Source: Gemmatimonadota bacterium
GTDB taxonomy: Bacteria; Gemmatimonadota; Gemmatimonadetes; Gemmatimonadales; GWC2-71-9
Length of the DNA stretch: 35,940 nt
NCBI GenBank assembly: GCA_016209985.1
Contig: JACQVB010000120.1
Span: 1-35,940 of the forward strand
Reading direction: 5' to 3'
In this document: piece by piece, positions 4,134 through 27,762 of the stretch
How positions within the stretch are numbered: the first letter of the stretch is position 1
Layout of the letters: every line of letters starts with the position of its first letter
Made by a program: the position numbers and the translations under genes
Notes under the pieces: model-generated
The model's input: the letters and a program-made list of their open reading frames with translations, nothing else
Told to the model about the DNA's origin: nothing
The model's database searches: none

Positions 4134-4175
4134 AAGCCATCAGCCATCAGCCGTCAGCCGTCAGCCATCGGCATC
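4134..4175. repeat. Heptamer array (CAGCCAT/CAGCCGT), left arm at clpB promoter
   Basis: AAGCCAT, CAGCCAT, CAGCCGT, CAGCCGT, CAGCCAT and a diverged CGGCATC follow each other with exact 7-nt period just upstream of the clpB ribosome-binding site. The reverse complement of this unit recurs at 4286-4306, so the two arrays form arms of an inverted repeat enclosing the clpB promoter region and the terminator at 4243-4287. Confidence 0.8.
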
Positions 4176-4213
4176 AGGATTTCGTGCCGATATTAGCAAG
4201 CGTCATACCTTTA

Positions 4214-4244: not shown

Positions 4245-4287
4245 AAAGACAGGGGGGTGAGCCAGCCTTGGCTAGCACACCCCCCTG
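4243..4287 (-). terminator. Rho-independent terminator after the T9SS-tail gene
   Basis: A perfect 10-bp stem (CAGGGGGGTG at 4250-4259 with CACCCCCCTG at 4278-4287) encloses a smaller GCCA/TGGC stem. On the minus strand it is followed directly by TCTTTTT. It begins 21 nt after the stop codon at 4308. It separates that gene from clpB. Confidence 0.85.
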
Positions 4288-4306
4288 ATGGCTGACGGCT
4301 GATGGC
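4286..4306. repeat. Heptamer array (TGATGGC/TGACGGC), right arm
   Basis: TGATGGC, TGACGGC, TGATGGC run up to the stop codon of the gene at 4308. This is the reverse complement of the array at 4134-4175, and the first unit overlaps the terminator stem by 2 nt. Confidence 0.8.
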
Positions 4307-4307
4307 T

Positions 4308-6772: not shown

Positions 6773-7617
6773 GAGTGGGTTTCCCAGAAAGCCAAGGCTG
6801 GAAGCTCGCGGTCTTCCGAAGCGTGCCGCCGGACGAAGCGCGCGAGCAGGCGCCGGTGGGCAGCTTCGCGCTTTGCCTCACCCCTGGCCCCTCTCCCCTT
6901 CCCCTTCGCTGCGCTCGGGGTCATGGCAGGCTCGACGGGAGAGGGGGAATCTCCCGACTCACGACGCTTCGCACCCGCATCCGGATCTTCCTCGGTTGGC
7001 AAATCCCCGGTCACCAGGCGCTCTAGGAGGCGGCGCTCCTCATGGGGGAGTTTCGGAGCGTCGGTGCCGGCGGCACAGGTGGCGCAGAGCAAGCCACCGT
7101 CGGTTACGGAGAAGCGCGCGGCGCCCTCGGGAAGCGGACGGCCATCGCGCGCGCAGGAGTCGAGCGACGGGGAGAATCCGAGTGTCGCAATCATTCGCCA
7201 CATCGCCGCAAGCCCGATCAGACCGACCTGTTCGTCGGGTGCCTCGGCCAGCCGGTCCAGCGACTCGCTCAGCAGATCGAAGATCTCCGGATGCCGTTCC
7301 TCGGGCGAGAGCCGGAGGACCAGTTCGCTCAACGCCGCGGCCGCCGCATAGCGCCGCACATCTTTCGCCAGAGCGGCACGTTGTGCGGTCAGGTCAAAGC
7401 CGGCCAACGTCTGGAGATCGCGCGTCTGCTTGAGATACAGCTGCGCCACGCCCTGACTGAGCGACTGCAGCCGCGCCCCGAACCGGCTCTTAGGCCGGAA
7501 TGCCCCCTTGGCGATGGCGCTCTGCACCCCATGCTCACGGGTCAAGAGGCGGACGATCTTAGACGTATCGCCGTACTTGAACGAGTGAAGAACGATGGCG
7601 GCAGTGGAGACGAGCAT
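6769..7617 (-). CDS. recO: DNA repair protein RecO, with a repeat inserted in frame
   Basis: A 282-residue RecF-pathway mediator that helps load RecA on SSB-coated DNA and anneals strands. The N-terminal OB fold reads AAIVLHSFKYGDTSKIVRLLTREHG. A helical domain and a partial zinc-finger region (SCARDG, CATC) follow. Residues about 223-247 (SGDSPSPVEPAM, KGKGRGARGE) are the in-frame translation of palindromic element copy 3 (6876-6949), a segment that does not look like RecO. The normal C-terminal helix (LLARFVRRH, ELPALAFWE) resumes afterwards, so the insertion sits in a linker and the protein is probably functional. It overlaps selB by 4 nt. The region upstream of its ATG is a heptamer hairpin, with no clear Shine-Dalgarno sequence. 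Confidence 0.9.
   Translation of the reverse strand: MLVSTAAIVLHSFKYGDTSKIVRLLTREHGVQSAIAKGAFRPKSRFGARLQSLSQGVAQLYLKQTRDLQTLAGFDLTAQRAALAKDVRRYAAAAALSELVLRLSPEERHPEIFDLLSESLDRLAEAPDEQVGLIGLAAMWRMIATLGFSPSLDSCARDGRPLPEGAARFSVTDGGLLCATCAAGTDAPKLPHEERRLLERLVTGDLPTEEDPDAGAKRRESGDSPSPVEPAMTPSAAKGKGRGARGEAKREAAHRRLLARFVRRHASEDRELPALAFWETHS
6876..6949 (-). repeat. CCTCACCCC palindromic element, copy 3, inside recO
   Basis: CCTCACCCCTGGCCCC, CTCTCCCC, a 33-nt middle, then GGGAGAGGGGGAA. Same orientation relative to transcription as copies 1, 4, 5 and 6. It lies wholly within the recO frame. Confidence 0.85.
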
Positions 7618-7627
7618 GAGTGAAGAT

Positions 7628-7715
7628 ATTGCGGATTTCGGATTGCGGATTGCGGATTGAAAAACGGGAAACGTGCCTGATCAATCCGTAATCCGAAATC
7701 CGCAATCCGCAATCA
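7628..7715. repeat. Hairpin with heptamer arms (ATTGCGG / GCAATCC) between btuB and recO
   Basis: The left arm 7628-7659 is ATTGCGG, ATTTCGG, ATTGCGG, ATTGCGG, ATTG. The right arm 7681-7715 is TCAATCC, GTAATCC, GAAATCC, GCAATCC, GCAATCA. The arms pair over 33 nt with three mismatches and a 21-nt loop. It starts 6 nt after the btuB stop and ends 10 nt before the recO ATG. It could act as a transcription or mRNA-processing boundary, but there is no T-run. Confidence 0.85.
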
Positions 7716-9677: not shown

Positions 9678-9781
9678 GTGAGTGGTAAGTGGTGAGTGGT
9701 AAGTGGTGCGTGGTGCGTGGTGGGTGGAAGGCAGACGGTGCGGCGACCACTCACCACGCACCACTCACCACTCACCACTCA
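9678..9781. repeat. Hairpin with heptamer arms (GTGAGTG / CCACTCA) between btuD and btuB
   Basis: The left arm 9678-9726 has seven consecutive 7-mers (GTGAGTG, GTAAGTG, GTGAGTG, GTAAGTG, GTGCGTG twice, GTGGGTG). The right arm 9747-9781 has five (CCACTCA, CCACGCA, then CCACTCA three times). A second inverted pair, GCAGACGG (9731-9738) and CCGTCTGC (9782-9789), interlocks with the right arm. The btuD stop codon is the last TCA of the right arm read on the minus strand. Confidence 0.85.
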
Positions 9782-10558
9782 CCGTCTGCGCAACGGCACC
9801 ACCTGTGGCACGCCGTCCCATTCCAGGGTTTGCACCGGCCACTGGAAGACCTGCTCCACCACCTGGCGGGTCAGCACCGCAGCGGGAGACCCCGCCGCGT
9901 ATACCCTCCCCCGATCCAGCACCACGATTCGATCGACGAAGCGGGCAGCGAGATTGACGTGGTGGGTGATGATCAGCACGCCAAGGTCGCCGGTGTGAGC
10001 GAGCTCGGCGGCCAGCTCCAACACCTCCATTTCATGGCGGAGATCGAGATTTGCCGTGGCTTCATCCAGCACCAGCGCGCGCGGCTCCTGCGCCAGCGCC
10101 CGCGCGATCCGCACCCGTTGCCATTCGCCACCGGACAAGCCGGCGATCCATCGGTCCGCCAGGTGCGCGACGTCGCACCGCTCCAATGCCTGCTGGACCG
10201 CGGCGCGGTCCGGCTCCCGGGGAGACCCGAGTGCGGTGAGATGCGGATACCGGCCGAGCATCACCGTTTGTCGCACCCGCAGGGGAAAGACCGGCTCCTC
10301 ACGCTGGACCACCACGCCGATGAGCCGCGCGAGATCGCGCCGGGTCCAGCTCGTCACCGGTCGGCCGGCCACCGACACGAGACCGGCCGCCGGAGCCAGC
10401 ACCCCCAGCAGCAGCCGGGTCAGCGTCGTCTTTCCGCTGCCGTTCGGACCGACGATGCCCACCAGCTCCCCGCTTCGGAGCGTCAAATCGGCAGCCAGCA
10501 CCGCGGCCTCGGCGGCGGCGGGGTAGCGATACGTCACGCCGCGGGCCTCGAGGATCAT
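9779..10558 (-). CDS. btuD: Cobalamin ABC transporter ATP-binding protein
   Basis: A 259-residue ABC ATPase that powers the BtuC permease. Walker A GPNGSGKTT (about 36-44), signature LSGGEWQRV, Walker B ALVLDEATANLD and the switch His in LIITHH are intact. The start is taken at ATG 10558, which overlaps the btuC stop as ATGA. An ATG three codons earlier (10567) is equally open. The family (BtuD/FecE/FhuC) is shared by B12, haem and siderophore importers. The riboswitch upstream and BtuF-like neighbour decide for B12. The C-terminus and stop codon lie in a heptamer repeat arm. Confidence 0.92.
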   Translation of the reverse strand: MILEARGVTYRYPAAAEAAVLAADLTLRSGELVGIVGPNGSGKTTLTRLLLGVLAPAAGLVSVAGRPVTSWTRRDLARLIGVVVQREEPVFPLRVRQTVMLGRYPHLTALGSPREPDRAAVQQALERCDVAHLADRWIAGLSGGEWQRVRIARALAQEPRALVLDEATANLDLRHEMEVLELAAELAHTGDLGVLIITHHVNLAARFVDRIVVLDRGRVYAAGSPAAVLTRQVVEQVFQWPVQTLEWDGVPQVVPLRRR

Positions 10559-12498: not shown

Positions 12499-12634
12499 GC
12501 GAATGGAGCGTCTCCTGGCTTCGGGCTTGAGACTCGCCTTCCCGGTTTCCCAGTGGCGATTGAGCCTCAACTGCTGTGCCCGTTACAGTGGCGGGGCCGC
12601 GCCGGAATTGCACCGGCTTCCGTGACCCATTCGC
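12499..12634 (-). ncRNA. Cobalamin (B12) riboswitch aptamer upstream of btuFCDB
   Basis: Read on the minus strand, the closing helix P1 is perfect: GCGAATGG (12634-12627) pairs with CCATTCGC (12506-12499). Between them are the class hallmarks in order: GCCGGTGCAATTCCGG, then GCCCCGCCACTGTAACGGG, the GCCACTGGGAA segment, and the B12 box AGCCAGGAGAC. When cobalamin binds, downstream expression should fall, here the whole btuF-btuC-btuD-btuB set. The 5' edge abuts palindromic element copy 5. Subclass and kissing-loop pairing were not modelled. Confidence 0.95.
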
Positions 12635-12678
12635 CTCTCCCCTGTCCCCTCTCCTTACAGGAGAGGGGGACGAGAGCG
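12634..12678 (-). repeat. CCTCACCCC-type palindromic element, copy 5, abutting the riboswitch
   Basis: CCTCTCCCCTGTCCCC, CTCTCCTTACAGGAGAGG and GGGACGAGAGCG. The stem is GTCCCCTCTCCT with AGGAGAGGGGGAC (one bulged G). It is the only copy fully outside a coding region apart from copy 1. It may end the transcript of the gene at 12704 or begin the btu leader. Confidence 0.85.
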
Positions 12679-24566: not shown

Positions 24567-25772
24567 CTACTCGGCCAGCAGGTGACCGAGCTTGTCCCGC
24601 TTCACCTCCAGATACGCACGATTGTCCTCGGTGGGATCAGGCACGATCGGCACCCGCTCCTTCAGCTCGAGACCGTAGCCCTCGAGGCCCACTAGCTTGC
24701 GCGGATTGTTGGTGAGTACCCGGATCGAGCGCAGTCCGAGATCCATGAGGATCTGCGCCCCGATGCCGTAGTTGCGCAAATCGGGCGGGAATCCCAGTCG
24801 CTGATTGGCCTCGACCGTATCGTGCCCGGCATCCTGCAGCTCGTAGGCCTTTAGCTTGTTGAGCAGCCCGATGCCGCGGCCTTCCTGGTCCAGATAGACC
24901 ACGACCCCGGCGCCCGCATCCGCGATCATGCGCATGGCGCTGTTCAGCTGCCACCCGCAGTCACAACGGCCCGAATGGAAGACGTCGCCCGTGAGGCAGC
25001 GCGAATGCATGCGGACGAGGACATTCTCGCGGCCGGTCGGCTCACCGTAGATCAGTGCCACGTGCTCGGCATCATCGACGTCGTTGCGATATCCGACGAT
25101 CCGGAATTCGCCATACGGTGTGGGAAGTCGGGCTTCCGCGACCCGGTGGACCAGCCGCTCGGTCTGCAGGCGATGAGAGACGAGCTGCGCGACCGTGATG
25201 AAGGTGAGCTGATGCTTCTGGGCGAATCGCTCCAGCGCCGGGCGCCGCATCATGGCGCCGTCCTCGGCCAGAACTTCGCAAATGACGCCGGCGGGGTAGA
25301 GGCCTGCGAGCCGCGCCAGGTCCACGCTCGCTTCGGTCTGACCCACGCGTTGCAGCACGCCACCGGGACGCGCGCGCAGCGGGAATACGTGACCGGGCCG
25401 CCGCAGGTCGGCGGGCGCGGTGGCCGGGTCGATGGCCACTCGAATCGTTTTGGCACGGTCGACCGCCGAAATGCCGGTGGTAACCCCGAACCGTTTCGCG
25501 GCATCGATGCTGATGGTAAAGGCGGTTTCGTACGCTTCGGTGTTCTCGTCGGCCATCTGGGGCAGGCCGAGCGCATCGCAGCGCTCGGGAGTCAGCGTGA
25601 GACAGATCAGACCGCGCCCGTGGGTGGCCATGAAGTTGATCATGTCCGGCGTGACCAATTCCGCCGCGCCGATCAGATCGCCCTCGTTCTCGCGATCCTC
25701 GTCGTCGGCGACGATCACCAACCGTCCCGCCTTGATGTCTTCTATCGCTTGTTTGACGGTGCCAAATCCCAT
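24567..25772 (-). CDS. ribBA: Bifunctional DHBP synthase / GTP cyclohydrolase II
   Basis: A 401-residue fusion supplying both precursors of riboflavin. The RibB half (about 1-200) has DDEDRENEGDLI, THGRGLICL and the RPGHVFPLRA loop. The RibA half (about 205-401) has the zinc cysteines in SRCLTGDVFHSGRCDCGWQL, the catalytic YLDQEGRGIGL and LTNNPRKL. The start ATG 25772 has AAGG 8 nt upstream, within the second copy of a tandem 19-bp duplication. It begins the longest gap-free gene run in the window. Confidence 0.97.
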   Translation of the reverse strand: MGFGTVKQAIEDIKAGRLVIVADDEDRENEGDLIGAAELVTPDMINFMATHGRGLICLTLTPERCDALGLPQMADENTEAYETAFTISIDAAKRFGVTTGISAVDRAKTIRVAIDPATAPADLRRPGHVFPLRARPGGVLQRVGQTEASVDLARLAGLYPAGVICEVLAEDGAMMRRPALERFAQKHQLTFITVAQLVSHRLQTERLVHRVAEARLPTPYGEFRIVGYRNDVDDAEHVALIYGEPTGRENVLVRMHSRCLTGDVFHSGRCDCGWQLNSAMRMIADAGAGVVVYLDQEGRGIGLLNKLKAYELQDAGHDTVEANQRLGFPPDLRNYGIGAQILMDLGLRSIRVLTNNPRKLVGLEGYGLELKERVPIVPDPTEDNRAYLEVKRDKLGHLLAE

Positions 25773-25776
25773 CTTT

Positions 25777-25814
25777 TTTCCTTATTGAGTAATCGTTCCC
25801 TTATTGAGTAATCG
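25777..25814 (-). repeat. Tandem 19-bp duplication carrying the ribBA ribosome-binding site
   Basis: Two adjacent copies (25777-25795 and 25796-25814) differ at one base. On the coding strand each reads CGATTACTCAATAAGG followed by GAA or AAA, so the Shine-Dalgarno sequence AAGG is present twice, and only the second is correctly spaced for the ATG. Confidence 0.85.
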
Positions 25815-25820
25815 GCCCGC

Positions 25821-26087
25821 TGTCATCCTGAGCCCCGACCCCGAGTGAAAAGAGTGGGTCGGGCGAAGGATCTGCCTGGCTCGGGCCGAAGGATCTGCCG
25901 GGCTCGGGCGAAGGATCTGCCTGGCTCGGGCGAAGGATCTGCCTGGCTCGGGCGAAGGATCTGCCTGGCTCGGGCGAACGATCTGCCTGGCTCGGGCGAA
26001 CGATCTGCCTGGCTCGGGGACGCACCGAAACCGTCGGCCGAGGTTAACGCTTCGCAGATCCTTCGCCGCTGCGCGGCTCAGGATGAC
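25821..26087. repeat. Palindromic element with TCATCCTGAGCC ends and internal tandem expansion
   Basis: Terminal inverted repeats GTCATCCTGAGCC (25822-25834) and GGCTCAGGATGAC (26075-26087). An inner inverted pair GCGAAGGATCTGC (25863-25875) and GCAGATCCTTCGC (26054-26066) also occurs. The left inner arm has been amplified into seven tandem units. No protein is encoded. It occupies the whole ribE-ribBA gap and its right end contains the ribE stop codon. Confidence 0.85.
25861..26015. repeat. Seven tandem copies of a 22-bp unit
   Basis: The unit is GGGCGAAGGATC followed by TGCCTGGCTC. Copies start at 25861, 25883, 25906, 25928, 25950, 25972 and 25994. Copy 2 has a 1-nt insertion and a T-to-G change. 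Copies 6 and 7 share GAACG in place of GAAGG, showing duplication after mutation. Confidence 0.95.
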
Positions 26088-26680
26088 GACCCTTCTCCAT
26101 GCTTGAGAAACTGAGCGACCATCTTTCCGAGCATATCTCCTTCAACATGCACCTTATCCCCCCCCCGCAACTGCCCCAGGGTGGTGTGCAACCGAGTGAA
26201 TGGTATTAATGATACCTGCACGAGTCCGGGTTCCGGTATCGCGTTGACCATCAAGCTCACGCCGTCCAGCGCGATCGATCCATGCAGAACCGTGGTGGCA
26301 GCGACGTCGGGAGGGACTCGTAAGTCCAAGAGGAGCGAGTCCTTAGACTCGCGTACCGCGGTCACCTCGGCCAGTCCGTCCACGTGACCCTGGACGAAAT
26401 GGCCGCCCAGGCGATCTGAGGCTCGAAGCGCCCGCTCGAGATTCACCCTGCCGCCTTCGCGCATCTGCGCCAGTCGGGTACGGTCCTGGGTGGTGACGAC
26501 CGCCTGTACCCGGAAGCGGCCCGGCCGGAGTGCAACGACCGTGAGACAGGCGCCGTTGATAGCGACGCTCTCGCCCTCCGAGAGGTCGTCAAACGGGGCG
26601 GCGATGGTGATGTCGAGCACTTCATCCTTCCGCTCGACCTTTTCCACCGTGCCCATCGCCATCACGATGCCGGTAAACAC
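26078..26680 (-). CDS. ribE: Riboflavin synthase, alpha chain
   Basis: A 200-residue enzyme that dismutates two lumazines to riboflavin. The start is GTG at 26680, giving the universal MFTGIV N-terminus with AAGGAG just upstream. The ATG frame to 26743 lies inside ribD. The two lumazine-binding repeats are visible: DLSEGESVAINGACLTVV with GHFVQGHVDG, and LHGSIALDGVSLMVN. The last residues (GSSS) and the stop codon come from the right end of the palindromic element at 25821-26087. Overlaps ribD by 19 nt. Confidence 0.95.
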   Translation of the reverse strand: MFTGIVMAMGTVEKVERKDEVLDITIAAPFDDLSEGESVAINGACLTVVALRPGRFRVQAVVTTQDRTRLAQMREGGRVNLERALRASDRLGGHFVQGHVDGLAEVTAVRESKDSLLLDLRVPPDVAATTVLHGSIALDGVSLMVNAIPEPGLVQVSLIPFTRLHTTLGQLRGGDKVHVEGDMLGKMVAQFLKHGEGSSS

Positions 26681-27762
26681 AGCTCCTTCTCGAGCGCGAG
26701 CAGCGTGTCCTTCCCCATGGCTTGGCGGTCGGTGGCGATCCATGGCCGAGCATCGCCGAGCAGCGTGGGAGTCCGTTCGCCGAAGGCCCGGGTTCCCGAG
26801 CCAAGAAAGATCGGCGCCTGGATCCAGTAGATCCGGTCAACCAGGTCATCGGCGAGCAGGGCGGTGATGAGGTTGCCGCCTCCCTCGACCAGAAGCGAAA
26901 CGATTCCGGCCTTGCGCAGCGCGGTGAGCGCCGGAAGACGGCCTTCGGCGCTGATCAGACGAACGCCCGACCCGGCCAACGCCTTTTCCGCAGTTACCCG
27001 GGAAGCGGGGTCGGTGATGACGATGGTCGGGACTTCCTTGGCGGTCCGCACGAGGTGCAGATCACTGCGCAGGCCACCGCGGGTGAATACCACCCGGGTG
27101 GGCGCGACACGCGGTGGGACCGCACCGCGCACCGTGAGCTGCGGGTCGTCGGTCTCGGCGGTACGGCGGCCGACGGCGATGCCGTCGAATCCGGCGCGCA
27201 GCCAATGGACGAAGTCGCGCGATTCGACTCCCGAAACCCACTTCGCCCGTCCCGAAGCGTCGGCCAGGAAGCCGTCGAGTGAGGTCGCGACTTTGACCGC
27301 GAGGAACGGCCGGTCGGTTCGCCGGAGGCTCCAGAGAAACGGCGCATTCAGGGTCGCGGCCTCTTCGGCCAGCAGCCCGGTCTCCACCTCAATGCCGGCT
27401 TTCTGCAACTGCTCGACACCGCCCCGCGCCTCGGGATTGGGATCCCGCACGGCGATCACGACGCGCTTCACACCGGCTTCCACGATCGCGTTGACACAAG
27501 GTGGTGTTTTCCCCTGGTGCGAGCAGGGCTCGAGATTGAGCACCATGGTGGAGCCCTTGGGTGCGGCGCTGGTCCGCAGCGCCACTGCTTCCGCATGGGG
27601 CTCACCGAAACCGGCGTGATAGCCCTCCCCGACGACCTGACCGTCCTTGAGGAGCACGGCGCCCACCAGCGGATTGGGCGCCGCCCGCCCCCAACCGCCC
27701 AGTGCAAGCTGGAGTGCGCGACGCATGGCCTGCTGCTCGCTCAAGCGGATTCCCTGACTCAT
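26662..27762 (-). CDS. ribD: Bifunctional riboflavin deaminase/reductase RibD
   Basis: A 366-residue enzyme for the second and third steps of riboflavin synthesis. The N-terminal deaminase domain (1-145) has APNPLVGAVLL, the zinc motif HAEAVAL and EPCSHQGKTPPC. The C-terminal NADPH reductase domain has VKVATSLDGFLA and LLVEGGGNLITALL. The start ATG 27762 overlaps the purM stop as ATGA. No FMN riboswitch can precede it because of this coupling. Confidence 0.96.
   Translation of the reverse strand: MSQGIRLSEQQAMRRALQLALGGWGRAAPNPLVGAVLLKDGQVVGEGYHAGFGEPHAEAVALRTSAAPKGSTMVLNLEPCSHQGKTPPCVNAIVEAGVKRVVIAVRDPNPEARGGVEQLQKAGIEVETGLLAEEAATLNAPFLWSLRRTDRPFLAVKVATSLDGFLADASGRAKWVSGVESRDFVHWLRAGFDGIAVGRRTAETDDPQLTVRGAVPPRVAPTRVVFTRGGLRSDLHLVRTAKEVPTIVITDPASRVTAEKALAGSGVRLISAEGRLPALTALRKAGIVSLLVEGGGNLITALLADDLVDRIYWIQAPIFLGSGTRAFGERTPTLLGDARPWIATDRQAMGKDTLLALEKELCLPAS

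Follow-up and report, generated by a model that had tools for sequence, protein, structure and literature searches.

The junction between ribE and ribBA in the riboflavin operon of this Gemmatimonadota bacterium carries an element that we read, at a probability of roughly 85%, as a dimer of CGTC/TGTC-type REP half-units that would have landed there with one of its TGA triplets closing ribE, and in which slippage would later have raised part of one half to seven tandem units, with a passive effect on the operon. The window, by which we mean the whole stretch of DNA analyzed (35,940 nucleotides), is one whole contig of a 4.64 Mb assembly in 289 contigs.

Anatomy of the element and its place in the operon

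The element occupies positions 25822–26087, between ribE and ribBA, and is built of two hairpin half-units in inverted orientation, GTCATCCTGAGC...GAAGGATCTGCC (Table 1). The original prediction was of a palindromic element with terminal and inner inverted repeats, and both pairs are found within the positions that it gave: the terminal repeat (25822–25837 and 26072–26087) is 16 nt long at 94%, with the 13-nt GTCATCCTGAGCC exact at both element ends (as its reverse complement at the right), and the 14-nt inner pair GGCGAAGGATCTGC and GCAGATCCTTCGCC (25862–25875 and 26054–26067) faces inwards. What has to be given up is the idea that the element is unique and that one inverted repeat is nested in another; there are instead two facing REP half-units, each with its own hairpin, and their DNA folds reach −11.2 kcal/mol (z −2.87) for the left half and −8.9 kcal/mol (z −2.15) for the right.

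Table 1. Features at and around the ribE–ribBA junction (positions in the window)
Feature	Position	Strand	Basis
ribH	24565-24056	minus	Pfam
ribBA, downstream, 305 bp past the ribE stop	24567..25772	minus	Pfam PF00926 + PF00925
Left REP half-unit: tag TGTC (25821-25824), stem ATCCT/AGGAT, extended inner hairpin CCCGACCC...GGGTCGGG, tail	25821..25877	+	DNA fold; own-genome pattern
Tandem array: seven TCGGGCGAAGGATCTGCCTGGC units and 5-nt partial TCGGG	25859..26018	+	TRF; exact register
Units 6 and 7 sharing G>C (GAACGATC)	25970..26013	+	unit alignment
Non-repeated spacer, array to right half-unit	26019..26053	+	sequence
Right REP half-unit: tag CGTC (26088-26085), hairpin ATCCTGAGCCGC-GCA-GCGGCGAAGGAT, tail CTGC	26054..26088	-	DNA fold; 14-nt inner pair with left half
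TGA in right half-unit, the ribE stop codon	26078..26080	minus	ribE frame reading
ribE, riboflavin synthase alpha chain, two lumazine-binding domains	26078..26743	minus	Pfam PF00677 (Lum_binding), 1.5e-38
ribD, upstream gene, strand as ribE	26662..27762	minus	Pfam PF01872 + PF00383

TRF places the array at 25855–26018 with a period of 22, 7.4 copies and a score of 291; the runner-up among the repeats of the window scores 72. Amplification of the left arm to seven 22-bp units had been predicted, and there are indeed seven units of the inner part of the left half; counted from 25859, however, they measure 22, 23, 22, 22, 22, 22 and 22 bp, followed by TCGGG at 26014–26018, unit 2 departing from the predicted length by one extra C and also having a T>G change. 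Units 6 and 7 have GAAGG>GAACG in common, which hints at the order of duplication, as had been proposed, and the remaining four units are identical. A period of 22 shifts the reading frame from unit to unit, not being divisible by three, so the array encodes no repeated peptide. A one-unit form would read ...GTGGG-TCGGG-CGAAGGATCTGCCTGGC-TCGGG-GACG..., and the array corresponds to 7 × 22 + 5 nt once the additional C in unit 2 is discounted. The pair of TCGGG copies 22 bp apart frames the amplified unit exactly and the array ends on TCGGG, as slippage or short-homology recombination predicts; to judge from these letters, slippage at the TCGGG repeats is the most likely origin, and unequal recombination is another way in which a tandem array can arise.

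At its right end the element gives ribE its stop, as the original prediction held: TCA TCC TGA of the ribE frame (C-terminal end ...GSSS*) lies inside it, and the element supplies the last two residues, the third base of the preceding codon and the stop. The ribE product is of normal length, relatives stopping 0–11 residues past the aligned part (query positions 209–221), with two at 21 and 23. This supply of a stop codon is real at ribE and is not a special arrangement, as three called genes end on the TGA of an element among 167 half-units (own-genome loci, the window and 116 named loci; simple gene caller). It also has a precedent, since in the available part of PMC3733652 the termini of GTAG REPs are described as often furnishing the stop codons of flanking genes. 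Pfam supports four frames that end on an element TGA, namely ribE, a SURF1-like gene, the end of a Hydantoinase_B gene and an ICMT-like gene; four other such frames have no Pfam match, and six more, of at least 80 codons each, lie outside the Pfam comparison. Systematic stop supply as a rule was considered and rejected: open frames of at least 100 codons before the element number 14, 10 and 14 in the three frames, and are no commoner in the TGA frame than in the others.

The element is absent from the same site in relatives. We found ribE in 60 of the 67 genomes of the family and used the loci of the best 30 of the 60 matches, own genome included; none of the 29 relatives has GATCCTT or AAGGATC between ribE and ribBA. 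The gap between the two genes is negative in 15 of them, 0–10 bp in six and larger in eight (largest 184), with a median of −1 as compared with 305 here, the ribBA start being approximate in four loci (L170, L171, L178 and L183) whose alignments miss the first two or three residues, starting at residue 3 or 4.

Copies in this genome and in other phyla

The end GTCATCCTGAGC is found at 14 places in this genome versus one for the reversed control, and GGCGAAGGATCTGC, with at most one mismatch, at 32 places versus four control matches. The strict pattern TCATCCTGAGN{3,33}GAAGGATCT occurs at 19 places, and its zero control matches, together with the 14-to-1 count for GTCATCCTGAGC, indicate that the element is not a product of chance; two of the GTCATCCTGAGC places (L002 and L008) do not run on into a half-unit. 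The other copies follow a common plan, [T/C]GTC-ATCCT-GAG-inner hairpin-GAAGGAT-CTGCC. With two stem pairs left free in the pattern there are 20 half-units in this genome, 19 of which are complementary at those pairs; the base before GTC is a T in 14 and a C in six, and all five close neighbor pairs are head-to-head, with the tags outside. The inner hairpins, 6–32 nt long, vary from copy to copy in size and in letters but remain self-complementary (86 of 133 mirror pairs in distinct loops; shuffle maximum 66). A search of the genome for single-arm copies, proposed with the original prediction, finds both single-arm and single-half copies.

A second kind of palindromic repeat is present in this genome, made up of inverted pairs of 7-bp tandem tracts between genes: ATTGCGG and CCGCAAT at 7628–7659 and 7682–7714 of the window, GTGAGTG and CACTCAC at 9678–9727 and 9746–9783, and AGCCATC and GATGGCT at 4135–4177 and 4285–4307. 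At two loci elsewhere in the genome (L006 961–1130 and L015 701–860) a head-to-head REP dimer is enclosed by an inverted tract of ATTGCGG heptamers, which looks like the nesting of one palindrome in the other. Low-copy CCTCTCC tracts, also of 7-bp period, lie at 1396–1419, 6876–6905 and 12634–12654 of the window.

Within the phylum the strict pattern occurs in 34 of 298 genomes, with a highest count of 62 copies and zero control matches in all 298. Among GTDB-species genomes the 26-base core GTCATCCTGAGCNNNGCGAAGGATCTGCC is present in at least 116 stretches, which span about twelve phyla as judged from record titles, most of the records being metagenome bins; in viral contigs it is present in none. 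The records among the matches listed include Planctomycetota, Bacteroidota, Pseudomonadota, Bacillota, Acidobacteriota, Chloroflexota, Armatimonadota, Omnitrophota, the Melainabacteria/Cyanobacteria group, Ignavibacteriales, Gemmatimonadota and Gaiellales. Since the search pattern demanded an identical core in every phylum and variants are common too, the strict core should be taken as one frequent form among others. Around it lie flanks and spacers specific to the lineage, for example in Saprospiraceae and Cardiobacteriaceae. The loci of Saprospiraceae SJ208 (L032, L035, L042, L054, L064, L084 and others) have REP dimers of a constant length of ~92 bp, with longer inverted flanks CCCAACCCGGGT...ACCCGGGTTGGG that form a larger, lineage-specific palindrome around the same core.

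The half-units of other genomes, which we count as copies, many of them from the same genomes and not independent events, are complementary at the two free stem pairs in 209 of 219 cases (1000 shuffles: mean 117, maximum 135). The pair types are CC/GG, TT/AA and TC/GA, and where the 5′ arm is other than CC, 58 of 64 are complementary. A T or C precedes GTC in 210 of the 219, close neighbors are head-to-head in 59 pairs, head-to-tail in nine and tail-to-tail in three, and the inner loops have 98 of 208 mirror pairs against a shuffle maximum of 75, some loops containing a second half-unit or arm. By a rough gene caller, 68 of 167 half-units are 3′ of a neighboring called gene and 59 are 5′ of one, while 36 fall within a called frame and four have no gene beside them; a preference for the 3′ side is weak here, unlike the clear 3′ bias in print.

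Tandem single-arm copies are not peculiar to the ribE locus. An arm-duplication search gave matches in four of the 298 genomes, of which that in G102 was discarded because it resembles coding sequence by eye; the others are this genome and two of genus g17: G282 has five matched places of tandem single arms, two of them neighbors in one array, and G233 has one, all of other sequences. Beyond this genome, extra 5′ arms accompany 16 of 150 half-units in several phyla, under a pattern that allows one mismatch so that a few may be chance (22 rows from 18 half-units, L051 and L085 being set aside as variant full units), and extra 3′ arms accompany two of the 150 (five rows, with L051, L053 and L057 set aside as containing a whole neighboring half-unit). 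In this genome one of 16 half-units has extra arms, that at ribE, and its six are the most seen in the analysis. Arrays of the 5′ arm GTCATCC with a period of ~17–22 bp stand ahead of a complete half-unit at L132 (858 and 6665), L137 (5939, minus strand) and L094 (6673), in Planctomycetota, Gemmatimonadota and Bacteroidota records.

Origin, effect and competing explanations

In the origin that we propose, a head-to-head dimer of the TGTC/CGTC-tagged REP would have landed at the ribE–ribBA junction in such a position that the TGA in its conserved end GTCATCCTGA closed the ribE frame. Strand slippage between two TCGGG copies, of which the left hairpin has one on its 3′ side and the spacer the other, would then have doubled what lies between them, and repeated slippage would have raised it to seven copies, in an array whose copy number may vary between cells, as the original prediction suggested. 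By eye, there is no constant target-site duplication in the flanks of the dimers inspected, and insertion as such is thus something that we infer. Were the element a MITE of an insertion sequence, its ends would be shared with an autonomous element; the one facing pair examined in this genome, at C208 (L024), has half-units ~1.6 kb apart around a 404-aa frame that by eye appears oxidoreductase-like. As no frame there looks by eye like a transposase, this candidate composite transposon was set aside.

The effect on the operon would be passive, in that the element separates genes that usually lie side by side or overlap, and would add a long hairpin to the operon mRNA. This hairpin and the added spacing probably alter mRNA stability or ribBA expression somewhat, and breaking the usually tight ribE–ribBA junction may uncouple translation. 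The purine-rich AAGGAAAAAAG lies immediately 5′ of the ribBA ATG, so ribBA translation can probably begin independently; at 25777–25814 (+), shortly before the start of ribBA, there is also a 19-bp direct duplication (CCTTATTGAGTAATCG...) that repeats the purine-rich ribosome-binding stretch of ribBA. We regard the element as probably a tolerated passenger in the riboflavin operon.

Could the array and hairpin instead have been selected as an RNA device that tunes ribBA relative to ribDE? The position inside the operon, between ribE and ribBA, would suit such a role, and in the RNA fold of the junction the two ends of the element pair with each other, forming a long hairpin that encloses the array, but this fold improves little on shuffled sequences (z −1.67). 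One of two Rfam matches at 25400–26500, both sub-threshold, is to the Pseudomonas sRNA P4 and lies over the array (22.6 bits, gathering 37), and no promoter- or terminator-like site was found at 25700–26200. As the site is conserved in none of the 29 relatives, the same element lies at many other places in the genome, and ribBA has a purine-rich stretch of its own, we consider selected regulation unlikely. Still less credit is due to the proposal that the assembler made the array or got its length wrong: an array of ~160 bp is near short-read length and the assembly is in 289 contigs, and the exact number seven could be off, but the units have private variants in an ordered pattern, and arm duplications of other sequences have arisen independently in related genomes.

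The movement of the element raises a different question, as the dimer might be mobilized by a REP-associated tyrosine transposase (RAYT), as is thought for GTAG REPs and REPINs. The layout of inverted hairpin dimers is the same, and this genome has one match to Y1_Tnp (PF01797) at 4.8e-13, a partial one covering profile positions 3–86 of 121; the tag, however, is not GTAG, and the presence of Y1_Tnp does not rise with copy number. Sought in 35 of the 298 genomes of the phylum, the family is found in four of the 11 with at least eight strict copies (G000, G215, G066 and G114) and is missing from seven of these highest-copy genomes, while it is found in 12 of the 19 with no copies; the comparison leaves out five genomes with 3–5 copies (G157, G285, G273, G232 and G138), two of which have a match. 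Among the seven high-copy genomes that lack Y1_Tnp are the six of the same order with 17–62 copies (G254, G244, G241, G081, G213 and G144), and 15 genomes reached via named core loci divide into nine with a match and six without. A dedicated Y1 transposase is an unlikely mobilizer, and we hold the RAYT explanation as a whole to be quite improbable. The authors who described CGTC-type REPs state, in the available part of PMC3733652, that their means of spreading without a transposase is still an open question. We raise, as a conjecture and with low confidence, that the 26-base core, identical in about twelve phyla, spreads from one distant bacterium to another without a transposase of its own while single arms tend to multiply in tandem, and that the ribE array is the longest case seen of an arm amplification, perhaps hairpin replication slippage, that also builds and renews such REPs.

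Relation to known repeat systems

A full-text search of the available literature library by the letters of the repeat returned no paper on it, sequences printed in figures being unsearchable, and the main text of the RepRanger paper (PMC12306157), in the part available, does not print the motif. The closest described kind is that of the CGTC-tagged REPs, which were described in 2013 by Di Nocera, De Gregorio and Rocco (PMC3733652) and include Neisseria dRS3 and Rickettsia RPE-4 and RPE-6. As set out in the available part of that paper, they have a CGTC or TGTC end, a palindromic stem of 8–9 bp that opens with AT and shows complementary changes, a loop of 4–5 nt and a 3-nt unpaired tail that is mostly CCA; they mostly form head-to-head dimers with the tags outside, are without transposase association, and clusters of them are rare.

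Set against this description, a T or C precedes GTC in 20 of 20 half-units of this genome and 210 of 219 of the others, GTC itself being fixed in the search pattern; stems are complementary in 209 of 219, the AT being likewise fixed; close neighbor pairs are head-to-head in five of five and 59 of 71; and Y1_Tnp, the one family tested, is no more associated with high copy number (4 of 11 genomes) than with none (12 of 19). In its commonest form the hairpin closes a 3-nt loop with arms of 9 nt that are mismatched at two positions, a loose fit to the stem and loop described, and the bases after ATC are mostly TGCCG or TGCCC. Judged on its letters, the element is thus a head-to-head dimer, tags outside, of a TGTC/CGTC-tagged REP of a wider kind; since its tail is CTGCC and not CCA, we claim this wider kind and none of the four described CGTC families.

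It resembles the CGTC-tagged REPs, as far as the available text of PMC3733652 describes them, in its unpaired CGTC/TGTC end, the AT at the start of the stem, its short palindrome, the mostly head-to-head arrangement, its presence in several phyla and the lack of an associated transposase. It differs from them in the tail CTGCC, in two unpaired stem positions (G/A and A/G), in the long, variable inner hairpins of this genome as opposed to loops of 4–5 nt, and in the tandem single-arm arrays; Gemmatimonadota, Acidobacteriota, Chloroflexota and Bacillota do not appear in the list of CGTC phyla in the available part of that paper. To the known kind the family described here adds many phyla, an identical core and recurrent tandem single arms, which point to replication-linked copying as a candidate process; the ribE–ribBA element itself, probably a passenger that breaks a usually tight junction, is largely an ordinary example.

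With the GTAG REPs and REPINs that accompany RAYTs the element shares inverted hairpin dimers, an extragenic location and termini that give neighboring genes their stop codons, whereas its tag is TGTC or CGTC and it has no association with a Y1 transposase gene. The BIMEs of enterobacteria are tandem REP arrays. In them whole REPs are repeated in alternating orientation, while here it is one hairpin arm and spacer that are repeated. Amplification of REP-containing DNA between genes is what the two have in common (compare the available part of PMC2817692).
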